DNA of 33,814 nt, taken from NCBI GenBank assembly GCA_031286305.1, contig JAITUM010000093.1, positions 1 to 33,814 on the forward strand. The letters are read 5' to 3'. Position 1 is the stretch's first letter; each line of letters opens with the position of its first letter. The translations under genes and the position numbers were made by a program. The notes under the pieces were generated by a model that saw nothing but the letters and a program-made list of their open reading frames with translations, had not been told where the DNA came from and did not search any database. The stretch is from Candidatus Fibrimonadaceae bacterium (lineage in GTDB: Bacteria > Fibrobacterota > Fibrobacteria > Fibrobacterales > Fibrobacteraceae). Shown piece by piece: positions 1 through 33,649 of this stretch.

Positions 1-802
1 CACGACCCTCGCTACGACCTTTAGCTTCGCCGCGACCAAAGCCTTCTTCCCTAGCGTACTTCAACGCAGCATACCTGTCACGCTCATTCTTCATAGAAGC
101 CTCATAACTATCTCTCTCACTAAGAGTAAAATTAGAAATTCTGGCAATATCAAAAATCTTATCAAACACTTCTTCGCTAAACTCTGAAGGTTTCTCCCTA
201 AGCTTGTGGGCATTACGTAAGGAAAACATGAGCCTATCCTGCAGGGTCTTACACTCGCTCTTGTTTTTTTTGAATTTGCCAAGCCGAACAAATACCAAAT
301 TTATGTAACCATACCTGATTTCAGGATAATTGTCATTGGAAAGAGAAAGATATTGAACAATATCATTGTTTCCAAAGTCAAGGTCAAAATTAAGGAAACT
401 CAAGGAATAAACTGCTGGGTAGTTAAAATCCCAATTCCCTTTTTTGCCGCTTTTGGTTATTGCCATGCAGGCGTAAAAAAGGACTCTTTTGATAAAATAG
501 GCTTGTTTTCCCACCTGAACCTCCACAAGAAATTTGCTTCCTTGTGAATCTTCGCAGAGTATATCAAAAACAGAATCCCTGTTTTCTATGGTTTCTCCCG
601 GAACATAGGGATTTTTGATATCCACATCCACAATTGGGTATGTTAATTTTTTCTCTAGAAAGACATTGAGCATCACAATGAGCGGCTCTTTGTCTTTTTC
701 GTTGGCGAATGTTTTTTTGAATGGCATATCCACCGTTAAATCGGCGTAATATCCTGCGTCAGCTTCTGCATTAACATCAGCGTCCATATCTTTTTCGACC
801 AT
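1..802 (-). CDS. Rpn family recombination-promoting nuclease / PD-(D/E)XK nuclease family putative transposase (partial; C-terminus beyond window edge)
   Basis: Manual translation of the reverse complement from ATG at 802 stays open to position 1: MVEKDMDADVNAEADAGYYADLTVDMPFKKTFANEKDKEPLIVMLNVFLEKKLTYPIVDVDIKNPYVPGETIENRDSVFDILCEDSQGSKFLVEVQVGKQAYFIKRVLFYACMAITKSGKK...ERDRYAALKYAREEGFGRGEAKGRSEGR. The D-x(n)-E-V-Q-V core and charged 'YAREEGxxxGxxxGxxEG' tail are typical of the family. Absent from the ORF track because no stop lies inside the window. Confidence 0.88.
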   Translation of the reverse strand, partial: MVEKDMDADVNAEADAGYYADLTVDMPFKKTFANEKDKEPLIVMLNVFLEKKLTYPIVDVDIKNPYVPGETIENRDSVFDILCEDSQGSKFLVEVQVGKQAYFIKRVLFYACMAITKSGKKGNWDFNYPAVYSLSFLNFDLDFGNNDIVQYLSLSNDNYPEIRYGYINLVFVRLGKFKKNKSECKTLQDRLMFSLRNAHKLREKPSEFSEEVFDKIFDIARISNFTLSERDSYEASMKNERDRYAALKYAREEGFGRGEAKGRSEGR

Positions 803-1007: not shown

Positions 1008-1031
1008 CCCTATACCCCATACCCTATACCC
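1008..1031. repeat. Heptanucleotide tandem repeat CCCTATA/CCCCATA/CCCTATA/CCC
   Basis: Direct reading; period 7 bp. Confidence 0.85.
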
Positions 1032-1037
1032 AAACAT

Positions 1038-1067
1038 TGAGTTAATCATTAATTACTTTACTATATT
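1038..1067 (+). promoter_or_regulatory. Promoter-like module TGAGTTAATCATTAATTACT + TTTACTATATT upstream of the giant secreted protein gene
   Basis: The 20-mer TGAGTTAATCATTAATTACT is repeated exactly at 33602-33621 (opposite strand); followed by TTTACTATATT (1057-1067). Confidence 0.55.
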
Positions 1068-1175
1068 CCTGTCATAACTATGACAGAAAGCATGTATTTG
1101 GAGTTTTGCAATTGTTTTGGGCGAAAGCTGCCCGTAGTGGGTCTATACCCTGCTGCACCTCATGCCTATAGTAGC

Positions 1176-1245
1176 AGAGCAGAGCAGAGCAGAGCAGAGC
1201 AGAGCAGAGCAGAGCAGAGCAGAGCAGAGCAGAGCAGAGCAGAGC
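1176..1245. repeat. Pentanucleotide microsatellite (AGAGC)x14 in the leader of the 3551-aa ORF
   Basis: Fourteen uninterrupted AGAGC units, about 100 nt upstream of the ATG at 1348. Confidence 0.97.
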
Positions 1246-12041: not shown

Positions 12042-15000
12042 TTACCGCACAACAATCCGCTTTGCAACACCCGGGCGGTATTCGATGTACACGCCCGGGA
12101 CAGTGGGTTTTTGGACACCCAAAGGTTGACCGCGGAGGTTGTAATAAATTGGGGTATTGAGTATGGGTATATGGGGGTTTGCGATGATTGATGTGGTGAT
12201 GGCCAGGAAGTTCGCTGTTACCGAGATGTTGTTCCAAGCGTGCAGATCTTGGCGTGGGTTGGCAGTGGAGCCATCGCTCCAGCCGGCGAACTCGTAACCA
12301 TCGTTTGGCATTGCTGTGATTTGAGGGCCATTTGTGCCGGGCGCCGTTCTTGCCGTGTACTCGTCTACCAGCGTTTCAACGGCTCCTACTCTGATCTTTC
12401 CGTGCAGATCTGTTTTGTAGGTTAGCAGCCTTGGCAGCGTGAAAAACTCCGCTTCGTGCGCAGTGATGAGCTTGTTGCGGATGTATCTGCCGGAGAGGGT
12501 CAAGTCGTCGGCTGTCCATTTTCCGTTGGTCATCCCTATGTCTGATTTGAGTATGGAAGCGGCCTCGTCCTTGTCGGAGACCGACCAGTTGACCCAGCTC
12601 GTTTTGTGCTGATCTAAAAAGTTCAGCCAGATTGTGGTTGCGGCGGTGTCAATCGGGGTGTTTCCGCTGGCGTGGCACGTGCCGAACTCCGATACAAAGA
12701 GCGCGTAGTTGCGGTTGAGCGCGGTTGTTGCCTTGGTCCGAATGGACGCTCCGTGGCTGTAGGCGTAGAAATGCAGCGAGTAAGTCAGGTTGTTGCCGGT
12801 TACCGGATTAAGCGTGGCAACGTCTACATCCTGGCTCCAGTTGGGAGTGCCAAGTATGATGATATTGTGCGGGTCGATTGCCCTGATGGCGTTGACTACA
12901 GTTTGCGAGTATGTTCTTATCGTGGCCCAGTTCACATCTACGGGTTCGTTGTATATCTCGTATATTACATTGGGAACATCTTTGTAACGCTCTGCCATTT
13001 CTTCGAAAAATGCTTTTGCCGCGTTGGTGTTTGAGTGTGCCTGATGCGAGTGCCAGTCGATTATGACGTAGATTCCTTTTGCGATTGCCGCTTCTACCAC
13101 GTCTGTGACACGCTGCTTGTTTGATACGCCGCCGGAGTTGTCACCGTTTAGGTAACCGGCTTGCTCGTTGTCCCAATCTTCGTCCACACCCATAGCTGCG
13201 CGCACAACGCTCACTTTCCAGTCGTCGGCGAGCCAATTTACCACGTTGGCGTTATAATAGTCGCGACCTTCGCTGGCCATGCTCCAGAACAAGCTCATGC
13301 CGCGCAGTTGCACGATATCGCCGTGCTCGTTGATGATCCTGTTGCCATTAACCGAGAGTCTGCCGTTGCGCTCTACTGGGGTCATACCGTCGTTAATGTC
13401 TAAGATGGGCACCTTTGCCGTGCCGGAAATGGTGGAGTCCATGACGGACGTTGCCGTTATCGTGATGAGATCTGCCGTCTCGTTTGAGGCAACCGTGAGG
13501 AGGCCGGCGGTGCTGATATTGGTTCCCGAGGATGATTTGCCGGCGACGCTCCACGTTACGTCTTGATCGGGCCCGCCGATTCCCGCAACCACCGCGCTGA
13601 ACTGTATGGTGCTGCCCCTTCCCTGCACAGCGTATGCGTTTTGCGGGGTGACGTTGACGCTTGTCACGGCGGCGTCCATAAGGGGTACCGTAGCCGTGCC
13701 GGAGATTGCGGGATTCGCAACGGACGTTGCCGTTATCGTGATAAGATCCGCCGTTTCGTTTGAGGCAACCGTGAGGTTGCCGGTGAGGCTGATATTGGTT
13801 CCCGAGGATGACTTTCCGGCGATGCTCCATGTTACGGTCTGGTCGGGTTTGCCGGTTCCCAAGACTGCTGCGCTAAACTGTATTGTACTGGCCTTGCCCC
13901 GTACGGCCACCGTGTCTTGCGGGGTAACGGAGACACTTGTCACCGTAGGCGGTTCTTTGCTGATGTGTTCGGGCAAGCTTACGGGCGCGCGGAATCCGGG
14001 GAGTTTGCCGTTTTCGGTCACCCAGGGCGCATGAGCGAAACGCCCGCCTAAGGTGCCATTGGCAAGAAGCAGGTCGGACGTAATATCCGCGCCGTTTGGC
14101 AAGTTCGGACCTTTGCTGGACCACGTGTCGGTACCCGCATTGTTGAGCATTTCGTCCCACGCCGCGTTATTGACTAGCGAGCTGTATGTGGTAGTGGAGC
14201 CCGCGATGCGCCCAACGCTTGAAGCCCCCCTAACTCTAGGGCCGAGCGCAACGCTTCCGCGGATCTCGCCGTCCAAATAACCGGCAATGCCGCCTGCCCG
14301 TGCGCTGCTAATTACATCCGCTGTTGAGTAGGCGCTTTCGACGTGGCCCCAACTGGAGACACTGCCCGCTATGCCACCCACGTACTGGTAGCCGTTGATT
14401 GTGCCGGTCACATAGACGTTTGTAAGCGTGCTGTGGAAATCTTGCTGGTTCGTGCCGCCAACGTTGGTGCCGTATCCGCGTATCAACCCAACAACGCCGC
14501 CTGCGTATTCTCCGGCCGTGATGTCGACATCTTCGAGGGCGATGTTCCGCACTATGCCGGTGGCGGACACGCTGCCGATCTGACCGAAAAGCCCTGCGTA
14601 ATCGCGGGTAGTTTGGTTGATATACAGACCGCGGATTACATAACCATTTCCGTCAAATTCACCGCGGAACGGATTAGTGGAATTTCCGATGGGGATCCAG
14701 CCTCTGCCGCTGTTGAACGCAGTGTTGGTTGCACCGTAGCCGTAGAGGTTAATGTCGGCGGTTAAAATAACGAGCCGCCCGGTAAAGTTTCTTCCAGAGT
14801 TGATGGAGTCGGCAAACGCCGCCAATTCAGCCGCCGTGCCGATTCTGTAGGGAACCCGCACGCCGACGGTCGCGCTGCCGAAGAGGCTCGGGTCTGCGTT
14901 GGACGTGGCCCTTATGGTGAGCGAGGTAGCCGTTTCGCTGTCTGCTATGGTGAGCACGCCGGTTGTCTGGTTGATGGACGTAGCGGCATTGGTGCTTCCG

Positions 15001-15557
15001 CTCACGCTCCACGAAACAGTTTGGTTGGGATTATCGAAGTTGCTTACGACCGCGGTAAACTGCCGCGTTTCGCCCGAGGACAGCGTGACGCCGTTGGGGG
15101 AAACGGAAATGCGGGGCGGAGCCTTGACAACGGTAAACGAACCTAAGAGCGTCCCAGTCGTGGTGTTACTCAAGCTGTTGTAGAGGCGTTGGATCAAAAT
15201 GTTTTCAGTATCGTTTGTCGCGTTGGCAGCAGGGTTGAAAGCTGGGAACGGCGGGCTGTCCGAGTAGTAGATAGCGAATGCGCATTCATCATTCCAACGA
15301 TCCGCCGCAATCCAGTACACCTGAATTAAATCACCGATATCAGCTTCGAGGGTGTATGCCGCAGAGTGGCCGGCGCCAATCGTTGGGTTAGGCGTAAGGT
15401 TGTTCCCGTTACGAGTTACCCTTAGTGCCGCGCCATCCCAGCCGTCTCCGTATTCGTCATACAAATTAAAGGTAATCTCCCGCGTTTGCGCCATTACCAT
15501 TTGTGCGATAATTGCTATCGCTGCCAGTAGTTTGAATACCTTACTTCCGTATTTCAT
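12042..15557 (-). CDS. Secreted multidomain GH5-family endoglucanase (cellulase) with GLUG repeats, Big2-like Ig repeats, InlB B-repeat-like module and C-terminal sorting tail
   Basis: Catalytic region 'LRGMSLFWSMASEGRDYYNANVVNWLADDWKVSVVRAAMG...IYVIIDWHSH...VPNVIYEIYNEP...YALFVSEFGTCHASG' with NEP and SEFG motifs typical of GH5_2; 'GYEFAGWSDGSTANPRQ' repeat; tail 'YYNLRGQPLGVQKPTVPGVYIEYRPGVAKRIVVR'. GGAGG precedes the ATG at 15557, preferred over the track start at 15572. Confidence 0.92.
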   Translation of the reverse strand: MKYGSKVFKLLAAIAIIAQMVMAQTREITFNLYDEYGDGWDGAALRVTRNGNNLTPNPTIGAGHSAAYTLEADIGDLIQVYWIAADRWNDECAFAIYYSDSPPFPAFNPAANATNDTENILIQRLYNSLSNTTTGTLLGSFTVVKAPPRISVSPNGVTLSSGETRQFTAVVSNFDNPNQTVSWSVSGSTNAATSINQTTGVLTIADSETATSLTIRATSNADPSLFGSATVGVRVPYRIGTAAELAAFADSINSGRNFTGRLVILTADINLYGYGATNTAFNSGRGWIPIGNSTNPFRGEFDGNGYVIRGLYINQTTRDYAGLFGQIGSVSATGIVRNIALEDVDITAGEYAGGVVGLIRGYGTNVGGTNQQDFHSTLTNVYVTGTINGYQYVGGIAGSVSSWGHVESAYSTADVISSARAGGIAGYLDGEIRGSVALGPRVRGASSVGRIAGSTTTYSSLVNNAAWDEMLNNAGTDTWSSKGPNLPNGADITSDLLLANGTLGGRFAHAPWVTENGKLPGFRAPVSLPEHISKEPPTVTSVSVTPQDTVAVRGKASTIQFSAAVLGTGKPDQTVTWSIAGKSSSGTNISLTGNLTVASNETADLITITATSVANPAISGTATVPLMDAAVTSVNVTPQNAYAVQGRGSTIQFSAVVAGIGGPDQDVTWSVAGKSSSGTNISTAGLLTVASNETADLITITATSVMDSTISGTAKVPILDINDGMTPVERNGRLSVNGNRIINEHGDIVQLRGMSLFWSMASEGRDYYNANVVNWLADDWKVSVVRAAMGVDEDWDNEQAGYLNGDNSGGVSNKQRVTDVVEAAIAKGIYVIIDWHSHQAHSNTNAAKAFFEEMAERYKDVPNVIYEIYNEPVDVNWATIRTYSQTVVNAIRAIDPHNIIILGTPNWSQDVDVATLNPVTGNNLTYSLHFYAYSHGASIRTKATTALNRNYALFVSEFGTCHASGNTPIDTAATTIWLNFLDQHKTSWVNWSVSDKDEAASILKSDIGMTNGKWTADDLTLSGRYIRNKLITAHEAEFFTLPRLLTYKTDLHGKIRVGAVETLVDEYTARTAPGTNGPQITAMPNDGYEFAGWSDGSTANPRQDLHAWNNISVTANFLAITTSIIANPHIPILNTPIYYNLRGQPLGVQKPTVPGVYIEYRPGVAKRIVVR
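13392..13943 (-). repeat. Tandem duplication (unit about 276 bp) encoding two near-identical Big2-like Ig domains
   Basis: 'VTSVSVTPQDTVAVRGKASTIQFSA...GKSSSGTNISLTGNLTVASNETADLITITATSV...' followed by 'VTSVNVTPQNAYAVQGRGSTIQFSA...GKSSSGTNISTAGLLTVASNETADLITITATSV...'. Confidence 0.88.
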
Positions 15558-15586
15558 AGAAAATACCTCCATACCTTATCTTGTAT

Positions 15587-15638
15587 AAAATAGTAAATAA
15601 TGATTAAGTCGTTGCTTGGGAGTGGGGAGTAGGGAGCG
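15587..15638 (-). promoter_or_regulatory. Promoter-like module upstream of the GH5 gene: heptads (15618-15638) + TTAATCATTATTTACTATTTT
   Basis: Reverse complement reads CGCTCCCTACTCCCCACTCCCAAGCAACGACTTAATCATTATTTACTATTTTATAC. Confidence 0.55.
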
Positions 15639-15660
15639 GAGAAATCAGAGTAAATCAGCG

Positions 15661-15671
15661 TTTACTATATT
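15661..15671 (+). promoter_or_regulatory. -10-like box TTTACTATATT upstream of yajC
   Basis: Exact TTTACTATATT, 29 nt before the ATG at 15701. Confidence 0.5.
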
Positions 15672-15700: not shown

Positions 15701-16045
15701 ATGAAAATAATAGCAATTTTAATGACGCTGCCGATTTTCGCTATGGCAGAAGGTGCTCAGGAACAGGCTCCAGCCTCGCCGCTGTTTACATTCCTGCCGT
15801 TTATACTCATGTTTGTGGTTATGTATATATTCTTTATATTGCCAAAACAGAAAGAAAACAAGAAAATAGAGGAAATGCGCACCTCTTTGAAAAAGGGCGA
15901 CAAAGTTCTCACGGTAGCCGGCATTGTAGGCACGGTTTCCAATATAGATGACCGTTTTGTTAGCGTCAAAACAGGCGATACTAAAATTGACTTTGAAAAA
16001 GTGGCTATAGTCAAGCTGCTGGAGGCTAATGGAACTTCCACTTAA
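15701..16045 (+). CDS. yajC: Preprotein translocase subunit YajC
   Basis: 'FLPFILMFVVMYIFFILPKQKENKKIEEMRTSLKKGDKVLTVAGIVGTVSNIDDRFVSVKTG': classic YajC transmembrane + KKGDkV motif. Confidence 0.93.
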   Translation: MKIIAILMTLPIFAMAEGAQEQAPASPLFTFLPFILMFVVMYIFFILPKQKENKKIEEMRTSLKKGDKVLTVAGIVGTVSNIDDRFVSVKTGDTKIDFEKVAIVKLLEANGTST

Positions 16046-17619: not shown

Positions 17620-18528
17620 TTAAAAAATCCCCCACCCAAACAATCCAGCAATCATTGTAATTTTAATCATGTTTTGTGAAAATCGCCACTTTTTTAACAA
17701 AGCAAAAATCACGGATAAAAGCAAACCGGGAAAAACACCAAAAATCACTACCGGCTTAAACAAGGCAAGCATGGCTAAACATTTAAGTTCGCATATTATA
17801 ACAAGTGTCAAAGAGAGGTTTATACCCAACAGCACGGGGAAAGTTTTTAAACCGAGAGCCTTGTCACCTTCCATATCTTCTATGTCTTTTGTTATTTCTC
17901 TTGCAAAAGTTAACATAAAGGCAAAAAATGACAAGTGCAAAAGTTCTGCTTGATTAAATTTTAGCAGGGGAATGACTATAGGCGTTGTGGTTAATAACGC
18001 TACCGCAAAATTTCCGACCAAAGGCAAGCCCTTTAAAAACTTGTTATATATAAAACATAAAACCCCAACTAAAACAAATAACCAAGCAAGTTCAAAACCA
18101 AAAATTACTGCCAAAAAAAAACAGGCAAACGCAACAAGGAAAGCTCTTTTTAAACTTATTTTCCCGCTAGGCAAAGGGCGCTTTGGGCGATTGATTTTAT
18201 CTACTTCAAAATCTACAATATCGTTATGTGCGTTGGCAAAAGAAAGCAGAAAAAATACTCCAACAGAAAGCCAAACAGCTTCGTGAAAATCACTCTTTGC
18301 AATGTAAAAAGAATACACGCACACACCCGCCGCAAACAAAGAATTCCAAACCCGGCACAACACAAAGAATGCGAGTTGAGAGTTGAGAGTTGAGAGTTGA
18401 GAACTCCCTTCCCGCTTTGTATCTCGCTGGTGAACAGCCGAAGGCTGGTAGGTTTTTTTTCTTGAGCGAAACGTTTCCTTTTGCGCCTCGCTATCCCTAA
18501 GCGTAGATTTATGCATTCTAATTCTCAA
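17620..18528 (-). CDS. UbiA-family prenyltransferase (first ~48 aa encoded by a repeat element; true start uncertain)
   Basis: 'NDIVDFEVDKINRPKRPLPSGKIS' and 'DIEDMEGDKALGLKTFPVLLG' are the two Asp-rich UbiA motifs; multiple transmembrane segments. Confidence 0.87.
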   Translation of the reverse strand: MRIRMHKSTLRDSEAQKETFRSRKKTYQPSAVHQRDTKREGSSQLSTLNSQLAFFVLCRVWNSLFAAGVCVYSFYIAKSDFHEAVWLSVGVFFLLSFANAHNDIVDFEVDKINRPKRPLPSGKISLKRAFLVAFACFFLAVIFGFELAWLFVLVGVLCFIYNKFLKGLPLVGNFAVALLTTTPIVIPLLKFNQAELLHLSFFAFMLTFAREITKDIEDMEGDKALGLKTFPVLLGINLSLTLVIICELKCLAMLALFKPVVIFGVFPGLLLSVIFALLKKWRFSQNMIKITMIAGLFGWGIF

Positions 18529-20390: not shown

Positions 20391-21839
20391 TCACAAACTA
20401 TCACCAAAATCTTGCCTGAACTTCGCTATTAGCTTGGACTGCCAGTCTGATACAGGCTCAAGCCTGCCATAGAAGAACCTCAAAATTTTCGGCTCTTCGT
20501 AGAATTTCAAACCCTCGACTAATTGGCGATTTTTATACAACCAAACTAACCTGTCAATAGCATAATTAACTTGCGACAAAGTGAACACTCGTCTGGGCAA
20601 AGCGAGTCTAAGCAGCTCCATATTGGAATATTGCTCTTTGCCATTCTCGTCTCTTTGTTCGCTCAGCGTGCCGCGTTCCATTCCGCGAATTCCGCTGGCA
20701 ATGTAGTAGGCCGAGCCGAGTGCACCGGCTGGGTACTGGCTTTGCGGGATATGGTCTAAGAAAGACATCGCATCAACGTGGCAACCCAAGCCACCCGGCG
20801 GAGTGATAACAGGAATGCCGAGTTTGTCAAGTTCCTTGACCATGTGGTCAATAAATATCGGTCCCTGGCTAATCATATCTTCATCAAGCGTTTCTTCCAA
20901 CCCAACTGCAATAGCTTCCATCTCGCGTACCGACATTCCACCATAGGTCAAAAAACCTTCGTATAGCGGTATCAATTCACGCATTTTCAAAAAGTGTTCG
21001 TGATTATTTGTGCATATGCCGCCGCCGCGCCCAAAACCAAGCTTGCGAGCGGAAAAGTAAATGATGTCCGAGAGTTCGCCAAACTTCAAAACAATCTCGT
21101 GCAGTGTCATATCTTTGCAGGCTGCTTCGCGTTTTTTGTTGAAGTAAAGGTTATCGGCCAAGAGGCTGGCATCAAGCACCAAGGGTATATTATTAGCGCG
21201 GCAAACTTTGCTTGTTTCCGCAAAGTTTTCAAGCGAAAAGGGTTGCCCGCCAACAAGGTTTGTTCCGGCCTCCATGCGCACATAGGCTATTTTGCTTGGG
21301 CCGTGTTTTTTTATAACCTCGTTCAGTTGCTCAATATCAATGTTACCCTTGAATGGTAGGTCGCTCTTGATTTTGAGTCCATCTTTGATTATAAGCTCTT
21401 CGACTGTGCCCCCGTTAACCGTGATTAGCGCCTTAGCGGTGGTGAAGTGATAGTTTGTTGGCACCACATAACCTTTTTTGACAAATATTTTCGATAGTAT
21501 ATTTTCGCACGCACGCCCTTGGTGGGCAGGCAAAAAATATTTACAGCCAAAGAAGTTTTTAATCGACTTCTCAAGCCGGGTAAAGGTTTCGCTGCCGGCA
21601 TAGCTATCATCGGCGTACATCATAGCAGCAACCTGCCGGTCGCTCATGGCGTTCACGCCGCTATCGGTTAGCATGTCCATAAAGACATCCCGATTATGCA
21701 GCAAAAATGTGTTGTTTCCTGCTTCTGCAATAGCCCTACCGCGCTCCTCTATGGGGACAAGGTTCAGCTTTTGGATAATGCGTACCTTGTGCATTTCGAG
21801 GGGAAAGGACTCACCAGTATAAAATTTGACTTCAGCCAT
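20391..21839 (-). CDS. Beta-eliminating lyase, tryptophanase/tyrosine phenol-lyase-like (PLP-dependent)
   Basis: 'DMLTDSGVNAMSDRQVAAMMYADDSYAGSETF', 'PAHQGRACENIL', 'GGTNLVGGQPFSLEN'-type segment, 'SARKLGFGRGGG' candidate PLP lysine, 'GIRGMERGTLSEQRD', 'LPRRVFTLSQVNYAIDRL', 'EEPKILRFFYGRLEP'. Confidence 0.88.
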   Translation of the reverse strand: MAEVKFYTGESFPLEMHKVRIIQKLNLVPIEERGRAIAEAGNNTFLLHNRDVFMDMLTDSGVNAMSDRQVAAMMYADDSYAGSETFTRLEKSIKNFFGCKYFLPAHQGRACENILSKIFVKKGYVVPTNYHFTTAKALITVNGGTVEELIIKDGLKIKSDLPFKGNIDIEQLNEVIKKHGPSKIAYVRMEAGTNLVGGQPFSLENFAETSKVCRANNIPLVLDASLLADNLYFNKKREAACKDMTLHEIVLKFGELSDIIYFSARKLGFGRGGGICTNNHEHFLKMRELIPLYEGFLTYGGMSVREMEAIAVGLEETLDEDMISQGPIFIDHMVKELDKLGIPVITPPGGLGCHVDAMSFLDHIPQSQYPAGALGSAYYIASGIRGMERGTLSEQRDENGKEQYSNMELLRLALPRRVFTLSQVNYAIDRLVWLYKNRQLVEGLKFYEEPKILRFFYGRLEPVSDWQSKLIAKFRQDFGDSL

Positions 21840-21865: not shown

Positions 21866-21876
21866 AATATAGAAAA
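21866..21876 (-). promoter_or_regulatory. -10-like box TTTTCTATATT preceded by TTAATCATTA, upstream of the lyase gene
   Basis: Reverse complement: ATATTAATCATTATTTTCTATATTTTGC. Confidence 0.5.
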
Positions 21877-21914
21877 TAATGATTAATATATTTTTATATT
21901 TTCCCCCAACATCC

Positions 21915-25896: not shown

Positions 25897-25900
25897 ATTA

Positions 25901-26023
25901 TTCGCCTTTGGCGATTCACCAGCGAAATGTAAAGAGGGAAGGGAGTACTCGCCCTTAGCGATTCACCAGCGAAATGTAAAGCGGGAAGGGAGTATTCGCC
26001 CTTAGCGATTCACCAGCGAAATA
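25901..26023. repeat. Tandem 47-bp repeat (2.6 copies), core TTCACCAGCGAAATGTAAAGCGGGAAGGGAGT
   Basis: Copies start 25901, 25948, 25995 (last partial). The reverse complement of the 32-nt core matches 18403-18434 at 29/32 positions by manual alignment. Confidence 0.9.
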
Positions 26024-31526: not shown

Positions 31527-31567
31527 TGAAGGGAAAGGTAGTAAAGTAAACATTGATTAAGTCGTTA

Positions 31568-31578
31568 TTTACTATATT
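31568..31578 (+). promoter_or_regulatory. -10-like box TTTACTATATT, 8 nt before the lspA ATG
   Basis: TTGATTAAGTCGTTATTTACTATATTCTACACGGATG. Confidence 0.5.
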
Positions 31579-31586
31579 CTACACGG

Positions 31587-32108
31587 ATGAAACAATTATT
31601 GAACAAAACTCCTTTTTACGTGGCTGTAGCTGCGGTGGCGCTTGTTTTAGACCAGATTACCAAATTCTGGGCAGACTCGCACCCGCCCGGATGGAAAATG
31701 CCTATTATAGGTGATGGTGATGGCTTGCTAAACTTTATTATTGTGTATAATGAAGGCGCGGCTTTTTCCTTGAATCCTCAGAAAATTGTGTCTTGGCTTT
31801 CGCCAACCATATTCTTTGGAATCTTAACCATTATAGCTGTTGTGGGTGCTATCTATTTTTTCAGGAGCCTGGCAAAAGAAGACTACGCATCCAAGCTCGG
31901 CATTGCTCTTATAATTTCCGGAGCGCTTGGAAATTTTTGCGACCGTTTGCGCATTGGCAAGGTGGTAGATTTTATAGATGTTGATTTTCCGGACTTCATT
32001 TTTGAGCGCTGGCCAACATTCAATCTAGCTGACTCCTGGGTCACCATAGGAATAGTGTTGTTGTTTATAGGCGCATACCTAGTGCGACCGGCTAAACAAA
32101 AGGCGTAG
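31587..32108 (+). CDS. lspA: Lipoprotein signal peptidase (signal peptidase II)
   Basis: 'VLDQITKFWAD', 'IVYNEGAAFSL', 'ISGALGNFCDRLRIGKVVDFIDV', 'WPTFNLADSWVTIGI'. Confidence 0.94.
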   Translation: MKQLLNKTPFYVAVAAVALVLDQITKFWADSHPPGWKMPIIGDGDGLLNFIIVYNEGAAFSLNPQKIVSWLSPTIFFGILTIIAVVGAIYFFRSLAKEDYASKLGIALIISGALGNFCDRLRIGKVVDFIDVDFPDFIFERWPTFNLADSWVTIGIVLLFIGAYLVRPAKQKA

Positions 32109-32628: not shown

Positions 32629-33256
32629 AAGTTTTAAAACGCCAAACTTGCTTGCCTTTTTCGGTGATATAGTATTCTGCGGTGGCTCCATCGTTTCTTG
32701 TGTATAACACTTGAAAACAATCAACACCATGGATGCGTGCTTTTTTTCCGGTATGCTTGGCTTCTACGGTAAACCAGCCGCCCAAAACAAAAGGAAGCTC
32801 CCAAACAGCAGGAAGCGTTTTTAAATTTTCATTTTTATCGTCTGCATCTATTTTTTCCGCTAAAAAGTAGAGGAACTCTTCCGGTATAATATCATTGTCA
32901 AAGGAAATGGAAGAGGCGGAGTCGCTTTGGTTATTATGCCAATAATTCATTGCCGGGGTTTTTGCATAGTCTCTGAAATTCCACTCGACGGAGTATAAAC
33001 CGCTTCTAGTTGAATTTTGCCAAACAGGCTTTTTTGCAACTGCAAGCCCGGTTGTGTGCATTGAAAAAGACGTGTCAATAGAGCGGTATTGCATTTCCGC
33101 TGAAAATTTAATGCTATCCCCGATTTTTTGGGTGTGAATTCTAGCTGTTACCGGATAAATCTTTGCGCCCATGGGGAGTTTAGCTGAAAACCAAGCGTCA
33201 TTTGCTTTGACCAGACTAATTGCCAAAAGGCAGATGAAAAGAATGCGTTTAGCCAT
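32597..33256 (-). CDS. Secreted DUF3108-like protein (219 aa)
   Basis: Signal peptide MAKRILFICLLAISLVKA; 'KIYPVTARIHTQKIGDSIKFSAEMQYRSID...'. Tail-to-tail 32-bp overlap with the PPTase ORF. Family assignment tentative. Confidence 0.6.
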   Translation of the reverse strand: MAKRILFICLLAISLVKANDAWFSAKLPMGAKIYPVTARIHTQKIGDSIKFSAEMQYRSIDTSFSMHTTGLAVAKKPVWQNSTRSGLYSVEWNFRDYAKTPAMNYWHNNQSDSASSISFDNDIIPEEFLYFLAEKIDADDKNENLKTLPAVWELPFVLGGWFTVEAKHTGKKARIHGVDCFQVLYTRNDGATAEYYITEKGKQVWRFKTFRGVWFDRVQ

Positions 33257-33555
33257 TAAATCAAACGGTCTGCAAGCTGCCCGCTAAATTCCGGTGTGTT
33301 ATAGAAACCGCTCGAAATGCGCTCTTTGGCAAGAGAAATTTTCTCTTCTCTTACTTCTGGCAGGGCATTTGCTCTTGACATAACCAAAGCTTCTGCTGGG
33401 CTTTTGCCGGCATTTGCAGATATGGAAACCTGAACAGCGGAAGTTTTACCCATTTCCGCCTTTCCGCCTTCCTTTTTCGCCTGCACATCACCAGCGGAGG
33501 CTCTTTTAGCCCACTCAGCCGCACCGCTTTGAATATTAATATCAGAAATCTGCAT
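33256..33555 (-). CDS. FlgM-like (anti-sigma-28 factor-like) small protein, 99 aa
   Basis: C-terminal 'ALPEVREEKISLAKERISSGFYNTPEFSGQLADRLI' resembles the FlgM C-terminal pattern VRxEKVxxLKxxIxxGxYxxdxxxiAdxLI. Confidence 0.5.
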   Translation of the reverse strand: MQISDINIQSGAAEWAKRASAGDVQAKKEGGKAEMGKTSAVQVSISANAGKSPAEALVMSRANALPEVREEKISLAKERISSGFYNTPEFSGQLADRLI

Positions 33556-33583
33556 ATCTTTACCTCTAACACTATTATCGGCT

Positions 33584-33649
33584 AATATAGAAAAAAACTT
33601 TAGTAATTAATGATTAACTCAGATTTCATGGCTTTGGGAGTAGGGAGTA
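33584..33649 (-). promoter_or_regulatory. Promoter-like module upstream of the FlgM-like gene: heptads (33636-33649) + TGAGTTAATCATTAATTACT (33602-33621) + TTTTCTATATT (33584-33594)
   Basis: Reverse complement: CCTACTCCCTACTCCCAAAGCCATGAAATCTGAGTTAATCATTAATTACTAAAGTTTTTTTCTATATT. Confidence 0.55.

Follow-up and report, generated by a model that had tools for sequence, protein, structure and literature searches.

The window analyzed here is a 33,814-nucleotide stretch of DNA from a Candidatus Fibrimonadaceae bacterium. It contains four copies of the sequence TTAATCATTA, compared to 0.10 expected in shuffles. The initial annotation had aligned three loci (1008, 15638, and 33649) as a 60-bp module of heptads, CCCAA(A), TTAATCATTA, and a CTATATT box. 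All of its sequences and coordinates were found in place, and the 20-mer TGAGTTAATCATTAATTACT has the same letters at 1042 and 33608. All three loci are incomplete or short copies of a longer element (Table 1).

The first copy lies 280 nt upstream of a gene whose product carries a Laminin_G_3 domain, the second sits between the divergent GH5 and yajC genes, and the third lies upstream of a FlgM-like gene. TTAATCATTA does precede the lyase gene, as had been noted, but heptads are absent there and the site can be no more than a remnant of an element end. CTATATT did not hold up as a component of the module. At 1042 it lies further out because of a 5-bp tandem duplication (TTACTTTACT) in that end, and near 33584 it is a separate box just past the element end. 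This second box falls inside a match to a sigma-28-type promoter. The predicted promoter fits the FlgM-like gene with no element required. A similar AAAGTTTTT...GCCGATAA follows an element end at another locus (L015).

Three further features stand out in the window. A perfect pentanucleotide array that separates the end of the first copy from the beginning of the 3551-aa gene is a candidate slippage-prone leader. The sequence CATAACTATGAC, a possible operator or leader motif, lies just downstream of -10-like boxes at three loci (the window, L015:1614-1625, and L173:421-432). A different heptad array, GAGTTGA, occurs near 18373, and GAGTTGA-like runs adjoin a REP-like module in two other loci (L016 and L048).

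TABLE 1 Element copies, neighboring genes, and other features in the window
Feature	Position	Strand	Details
PD-(D/E)XK "transposase" match (PF12784)	2-802		
5'-truncated element copy	1008-1067	+	Heptads CCCTATACCCCATACCCTATACCC, then AAACATTGAG and TTAATCATTA (1042-1051, +); ends in TATATT (1062-1067)
TTACT tandem duplication in this copy	1053-1057/1058-1062		
CATAACTATGAC	1073-1084		Within palindrome TGTCATAACTATGACA
Pentanucleotide array	1173-1245		(AGCAG)14.6
ATG of 3551-aa gene	1348		
GH5 gene	12042-15572	-	
GH5-facing outer end of 81-bp element	15587-15592	-	Degenerate -10 box TATTTT
Short complete 81-bp element	15589-15669	-	Both ends; heptads CCCTACT/CCCCACT; no core; TTAATCATTA at 15598-15607 (-)
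yajC-facing outer end of 81-bp element	15661-15671	+	TTTACTATATT
yajC gene	15701-16045	+	
Heptad array	18373-18402		GAGTTGA x4.3
Beta-eliminating lyase gene	20391-21839	-	
Possible relic of element end	21866-21886	-	TTAATCATTATTTTCTATATT; TTAATCATTA at 21877-21886 (-)
REP-like module	25899-26022		47-bp x 2.6 tandem array
Possible minimal element	31540-31578	+	AGTAAAGTAAACATTGATTAAGTCGTTATTTACTATATT; end 8 nt before ATG of signal peptidase II gene
Signal peptidase II gene	31587-32108	+	
FlgM-like gene	33256-33555	-	
Predicted sigma-28-type promoter abutting element end	33575-33602	-	TAAAGTTT-N12-GCCGATAA; none in shuffles
TTTCTATATT box	33584-33593		Inside the sigma-28-type match
Truncated element end	33601-33649	-	CCTACTCCCTACTCCCAAAGCC...TGAGTTAATCATTAATTACTAAAG; TTAATCATTA at 33608-33617 (-)

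Structure and copy number of the repeat

Across the 3.19-Mb draft genome, TTAATCATTA occurs 39 times, as opposed to 2 in the reversed control, and the longer TTAATCATTANTTNCT matches 22 times, as opposed to 0. The pairing of TTAATCATTA and heptads seen in the window recurs genome-wide at about half of the copies, with C-rich heptads directly upstream in about 20 of the 39. When the copies were aligned in register, about 20 shared the layout heptads-CCCAA(A)...GAG-TTAATCATTA-ATTACTATA.

Anchoring on the heptads together with the sequence upstream of them gave the full repeat, TATAGTAAACGCTGATTTACTCGCTT-GGGTATGGGGTATGGGGTGTGGGGTATAGGG-AACTGCACAAATAAACGGCTAAATCTGCTTAAAAACAATGTTTTTTTGCATTG-CCTATACCCTATACCCCATACCCTATACCC-AAACATTGAGTTAATCATTAATTACTATA. 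It is an interspersed repeat of about 165 bp with the general layout TATAGTAAACGCTGATTTACTCGCTT-(G-rich heptads)-core-(C-rich heptads)-CCCAAACATTGAGTTAATCATTAATTACTATA, and the 60-bp module is one end of it. The element terminates in inverted repeats (TATAGTAA...TTACTATA) and matches its own opposite strand. Thus, the fixed architecture with variable heptads that had been described does reflect a dispersed inverted-repeat element, but the true unit is a two-ended hairpin rather than the 60-bp module.

BLAST found about 85 matches of the element in its own genome (G000). Among 12 same-genus relatives (Candidatus Fibrimonadales, termite gut), matches numbered 86 in G001, 84 in G003, 36 in G012, 35 in G008, 31 in G004, and 18 in G010, with 0 to 8 in each of the remaining six. 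Exact left ends numbered 69, compared to 0 for the control. The exact right-end 29-mer had no matches in the genome collection, while a shorter left-end pattern did match. Some copies are full length and others truncated, and some are nested or arranged in tandem. Many contigs break off inside one; the element accounts for many assembly breaks in Fibrimonadales metagenome-assembled genomes. By its size, copy number, and dispersal, this is a short non-coding repeat, as a MITE would be, and at about 165 bp of heptad-rich sequence its coding capacity is too small for a transposase.

One copy folds end to end as a single hairpin at -83.8 kcal/mol, compared to -38.8 kcal/mol in shuffles (z = -11). 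At least three heptad subfamilies share identical ends: CCCTATA/CCCCATA, CTAGTCA/CTAACCA, and CCCAATC/CCCTAGT. Left arms paired with right arms of their own subfamily at a mean of -46 to -50 kcal/mol, as opposed to -17 to -37 kcal/mol with the arms of other subfamilies. Since own-subfamily arms pair far better than foreign ones, both arms have changed together, either because selection maintained the hairpin or perhaps because one arm was copied onto the other. No Rfam family matched the window or two further loci (L101 and L102) at the gathering threshold.

Element ends and host -10 boxes

We gathered 149 distinct element ends from own-genome loci, on which the following statistics rest. Just beyond the terminal TATA, the flank begins with TT in 71 of the 149 ends and with G in 51. 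Where a TT end (TATATT) has a neighboring gene within 300 bp, it faces the head of that gene, as called by a simple open reading frame rule, in 61 of 66 cases; at least two of the five tail-facing ends look like starts missed by the caller. TATAG ends with a gene within 300 bp face 18 heads and 22 tails (Fisher p = 9e-8 for TT versus G ends; the copies are related by descent, and p-values are indicative only). In 16 cases, TATATT is separated from the ATG by exactly 6 nt, and in 27 cases by 6 to 9 nt. Because about 6 nt normally lie between the end of a -10 hexamer and +1, a 6-nt gap would place the A of the ATG at or near +1, as in a leaderless transcript.

Many full copies fill intergenic gaps between divergent genes. 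The genes behind the copies include those for citrate synthase (gltA), Met-tRNA formyltransferase (fmt), carbamoyltransferase, aminopeptidase P, YajC, an NADH dehydrogenase subunit, and many others. These are unrelated housekeeping functions, and the proposed link between surface or secretion genes and an anti-sigma-like gene does not hold.

To describe the native promoter, we used 665 kb of the element-poor genome G011 (two element matches; loci L229 to L268). The motif CTAYMTT peaks there 6 to 7 nt before ATG, with 152 occurrences upstream of open reading frames compared to 21 in reversed sequence. In alignment, these boxes spell TTTWCTAYATT, and no -35 element is evident. Judging from these alignments, promoters in the genus appear to consist of TTTWCTAYATT without a clear -35 element. 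In the same survey, 7.7% of called starts lie 5 to 7 nt past a box of this type, a leaderless arrangement. Several G011 orthologs of element-fronted genes show the box at matching spacing without an element.

We then compared the two sides of two-ended copies. Among 45 pairs with TT on one side and another base on the other, the far flank reads TT(A/T)C in 21, ends in C in 27, and differs from TT(A/T)C in 24, judged against a simple base-composition null and among related copies; TT stands on both sides in 13 of 72 pairs. With the far flank so often TTWC, the joined flanks give TTTWC-TATA-TT, and removing the element with one TATA restores a native box, e.g., CTATTTTC-TATA-TTAAACTC-ATG. At gltA, the joined flanks read CCTTTTTTC-TATA-TTATTAGACTG. 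The G000 gene reads ...TTTACTATATTATTAGACTGTTG with an element and its G003 ortholog ...TTTACTATATTATTAGCCTGTTG without one, and the leader and -10 register are identical. In G007, the sequence is TTTTCTATATTATTAGAG, and G001 carries an element end of its own at this position. The gltA locus gives the sole well-aligned element-free site, its upstream sequence fails to align, and the flanks are compatible with duplication of TATA or TA alike.

We consider it likely that the module is one end of a MITE, a non-autonomous element bounded by terminal inverted repeats, that spread by entering host -10 boxes. Insertion into a native TTTWC-TATA-TT would have duplicated TATA, or possibly TA. The terminal bases of the element, TTTAC-TATA, would then form the gene-proximal junction TTTAC-TATA-TT, which would restore the -10 box without a shift in register and keep the gene transcribed; the remaining part of the original box (TTTWC) would stay behind at the far end. 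A preference for -10 boxes, or a tolerance of insertion there, may explain where the copies lie. A stronger version, which we offer tentatively and lean slightly against, is that the transposition system targets the -10 box itself, through either its transposase or bound RNA polymerase/sigma, and that the element ends have come to mimic the box's upstream half, so that every insertion would rebuild the promoter and do almost no harm. If so, this would be a bacterial parallel to promoter-targeting retrotransposons. Literature searches gave no papers on promoter-box target specificity and, by title or abstract, nothing on leaderless Fibrobacter promoters. A phylogenomic study of the Fibrobacteres mentions neither repeats nor promoters (PMC4704652).

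Insertion in a promoter should mostly harm the host. If the -10 box is both the target and regenerated, the element would illustrate how a parasite can build up a high copy number in housekeeping promoters (citrate synthase, fmt, and yajC) at low cost. It would also have put hairpin and heptad DNA in front of many genes simultaneously, a natural experiment on the amount of promoter upstream of the -10 box that these poorly known bacteria need.

Could the ends instead be promoters themselves, with copies kept where they drive genes and no prior host -10 box? We regard this as unlikely, since the far flanks look like the upstream part of a -10 box that was cut in two, element-free orthologs have the box at the same spacing, and gltA retains both register and leader. 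It would account for the match between element ends and the host -10 consensus, and outward promoters are carried by Correia, BrickBuilt, and other MITEs (PMC10969869, PMC4596501). The TTTTC variant is also commoner at gene-facing ends (23/87) than at far ends (2/49; p = 0.001), as if tuned after insertion, an excess that also fits selection for, or conversion to, the native form that is more common. The mobile promoter cassette suggested in the initial annotation was close to right, in that the element ends fall on -10 boxes where genes start, but the evidence favors insertion into pre-existing promoters over delivery of new ones.

A regulatory element family, also suggested there, would be a set of protein- or structure-dependent operators (hairpin or G-quadruplex heptads) that selection had dispersed and that control a regulon. 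The downstream genes are functionally unrelated, copy number runs from 0 to 86 inside one genus, truncated, tandem, and nested copies occur as in mobile DNA, and some ends face gene tails. These observations make a static operator improbable, despite the fixed architecture adjoining gene starts, the complementary arms, and GGG heptads that could form quadruplexes (compare PMC4692102). We give almost no credence to coincidence, under which the heptads would be a short tandem repeat in its own right that happens to adjoin an AT-rich promoter box. Heptads do occur alone (e.g., GAGTTGA x4 at 18373), and their type varies while the ends stay identical; however, complete copies can be aligned along their whole length of about 165 bp, which refutes this idea, and the excess of TTAATCATTANTTNCT over its control also speaks against it.

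Comparison with known elements and candidate partners

We compared the MITE-like element with known systems through published descriptions rather than sequence alignment, and it appears Correia-like in kind only. Correia elements (CREE/NEMIS) of Neisseria are small high-copy MITEs with TA at their termini, a stable stem-loop, and outward promoters, mostly located just upstream of genes (PMC10969869, PMC2229807). The likeness lies in the terminal inverted repeats, TA at the termini, stem-loop, small size, high copy number, and location upstream of genes, together with putative outward promoters. Unlike Correia, the present element has heptad arrays in its arms, flanks that suggest insertion in an existing -10 box, and a host with partly leaderless promoters. 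BrickBuilt of Porphyromonas gingivalis is an intergenic MITE with an internal tandem-repeat array and bidirectional promoter activity (PMC4596501), but its repeats are 23-bp direct repeats with variable target duplications, whereas ours are 7 bp long and stand in opposite orientation on the two arms. The G-rich heptameric repeats (GGGNATC) in Xanthomonas and Nostoc form many convergent inverted pairs, are underrepresented between divergent genes, and have no identified regulatory role (PMC4692102). In contrast, the heptads described here belong to a defined element and often lie between divergent gene starts.

The pneumococcal RUP is an IS630-linked MITE of about 107 bp with inverted repeats, a TA target, and about 108 intergenic copies (PMC2229807). 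The present host differs, as the IS630-type gene DDE_3 (PF13358) is absent in all 12 relatives, element-rich ones included, and G000 has a single decayed copy without TACTATA. Two other transposase families were examined as mobilizers, PDDEXK_2 and Y1_Tnp, and none of the three fits. PDDEXK_2 gene counts do not track the element (G009 has 19 genes and 0 elements). The PF12784 match at the edge of the window is one of 38 in its own genome, and the genus carries 3 to 38 per genome. Y1_Tnp was not found in the element-rich G003, and a different REP family, with the module CATTTCGCTGGTGAA, flanks the RAYT-like Y1 gene of G000 (L331:1168-1932, contig C145) on either side. The hairpin element is represented at this locus by a single truncated end (L331:289-310). 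Some element ends form pairs 320 to 5000 bp apart, candidate boundaries of a larger autonomous element. The REP-like module consists of CATTTCGCTGGTGAA and a small stem-loop preceded by CCCTTCCCGC; it is dispersed, with 26 copies in the examined own-genome loci, and is often nested in the hairpin element.
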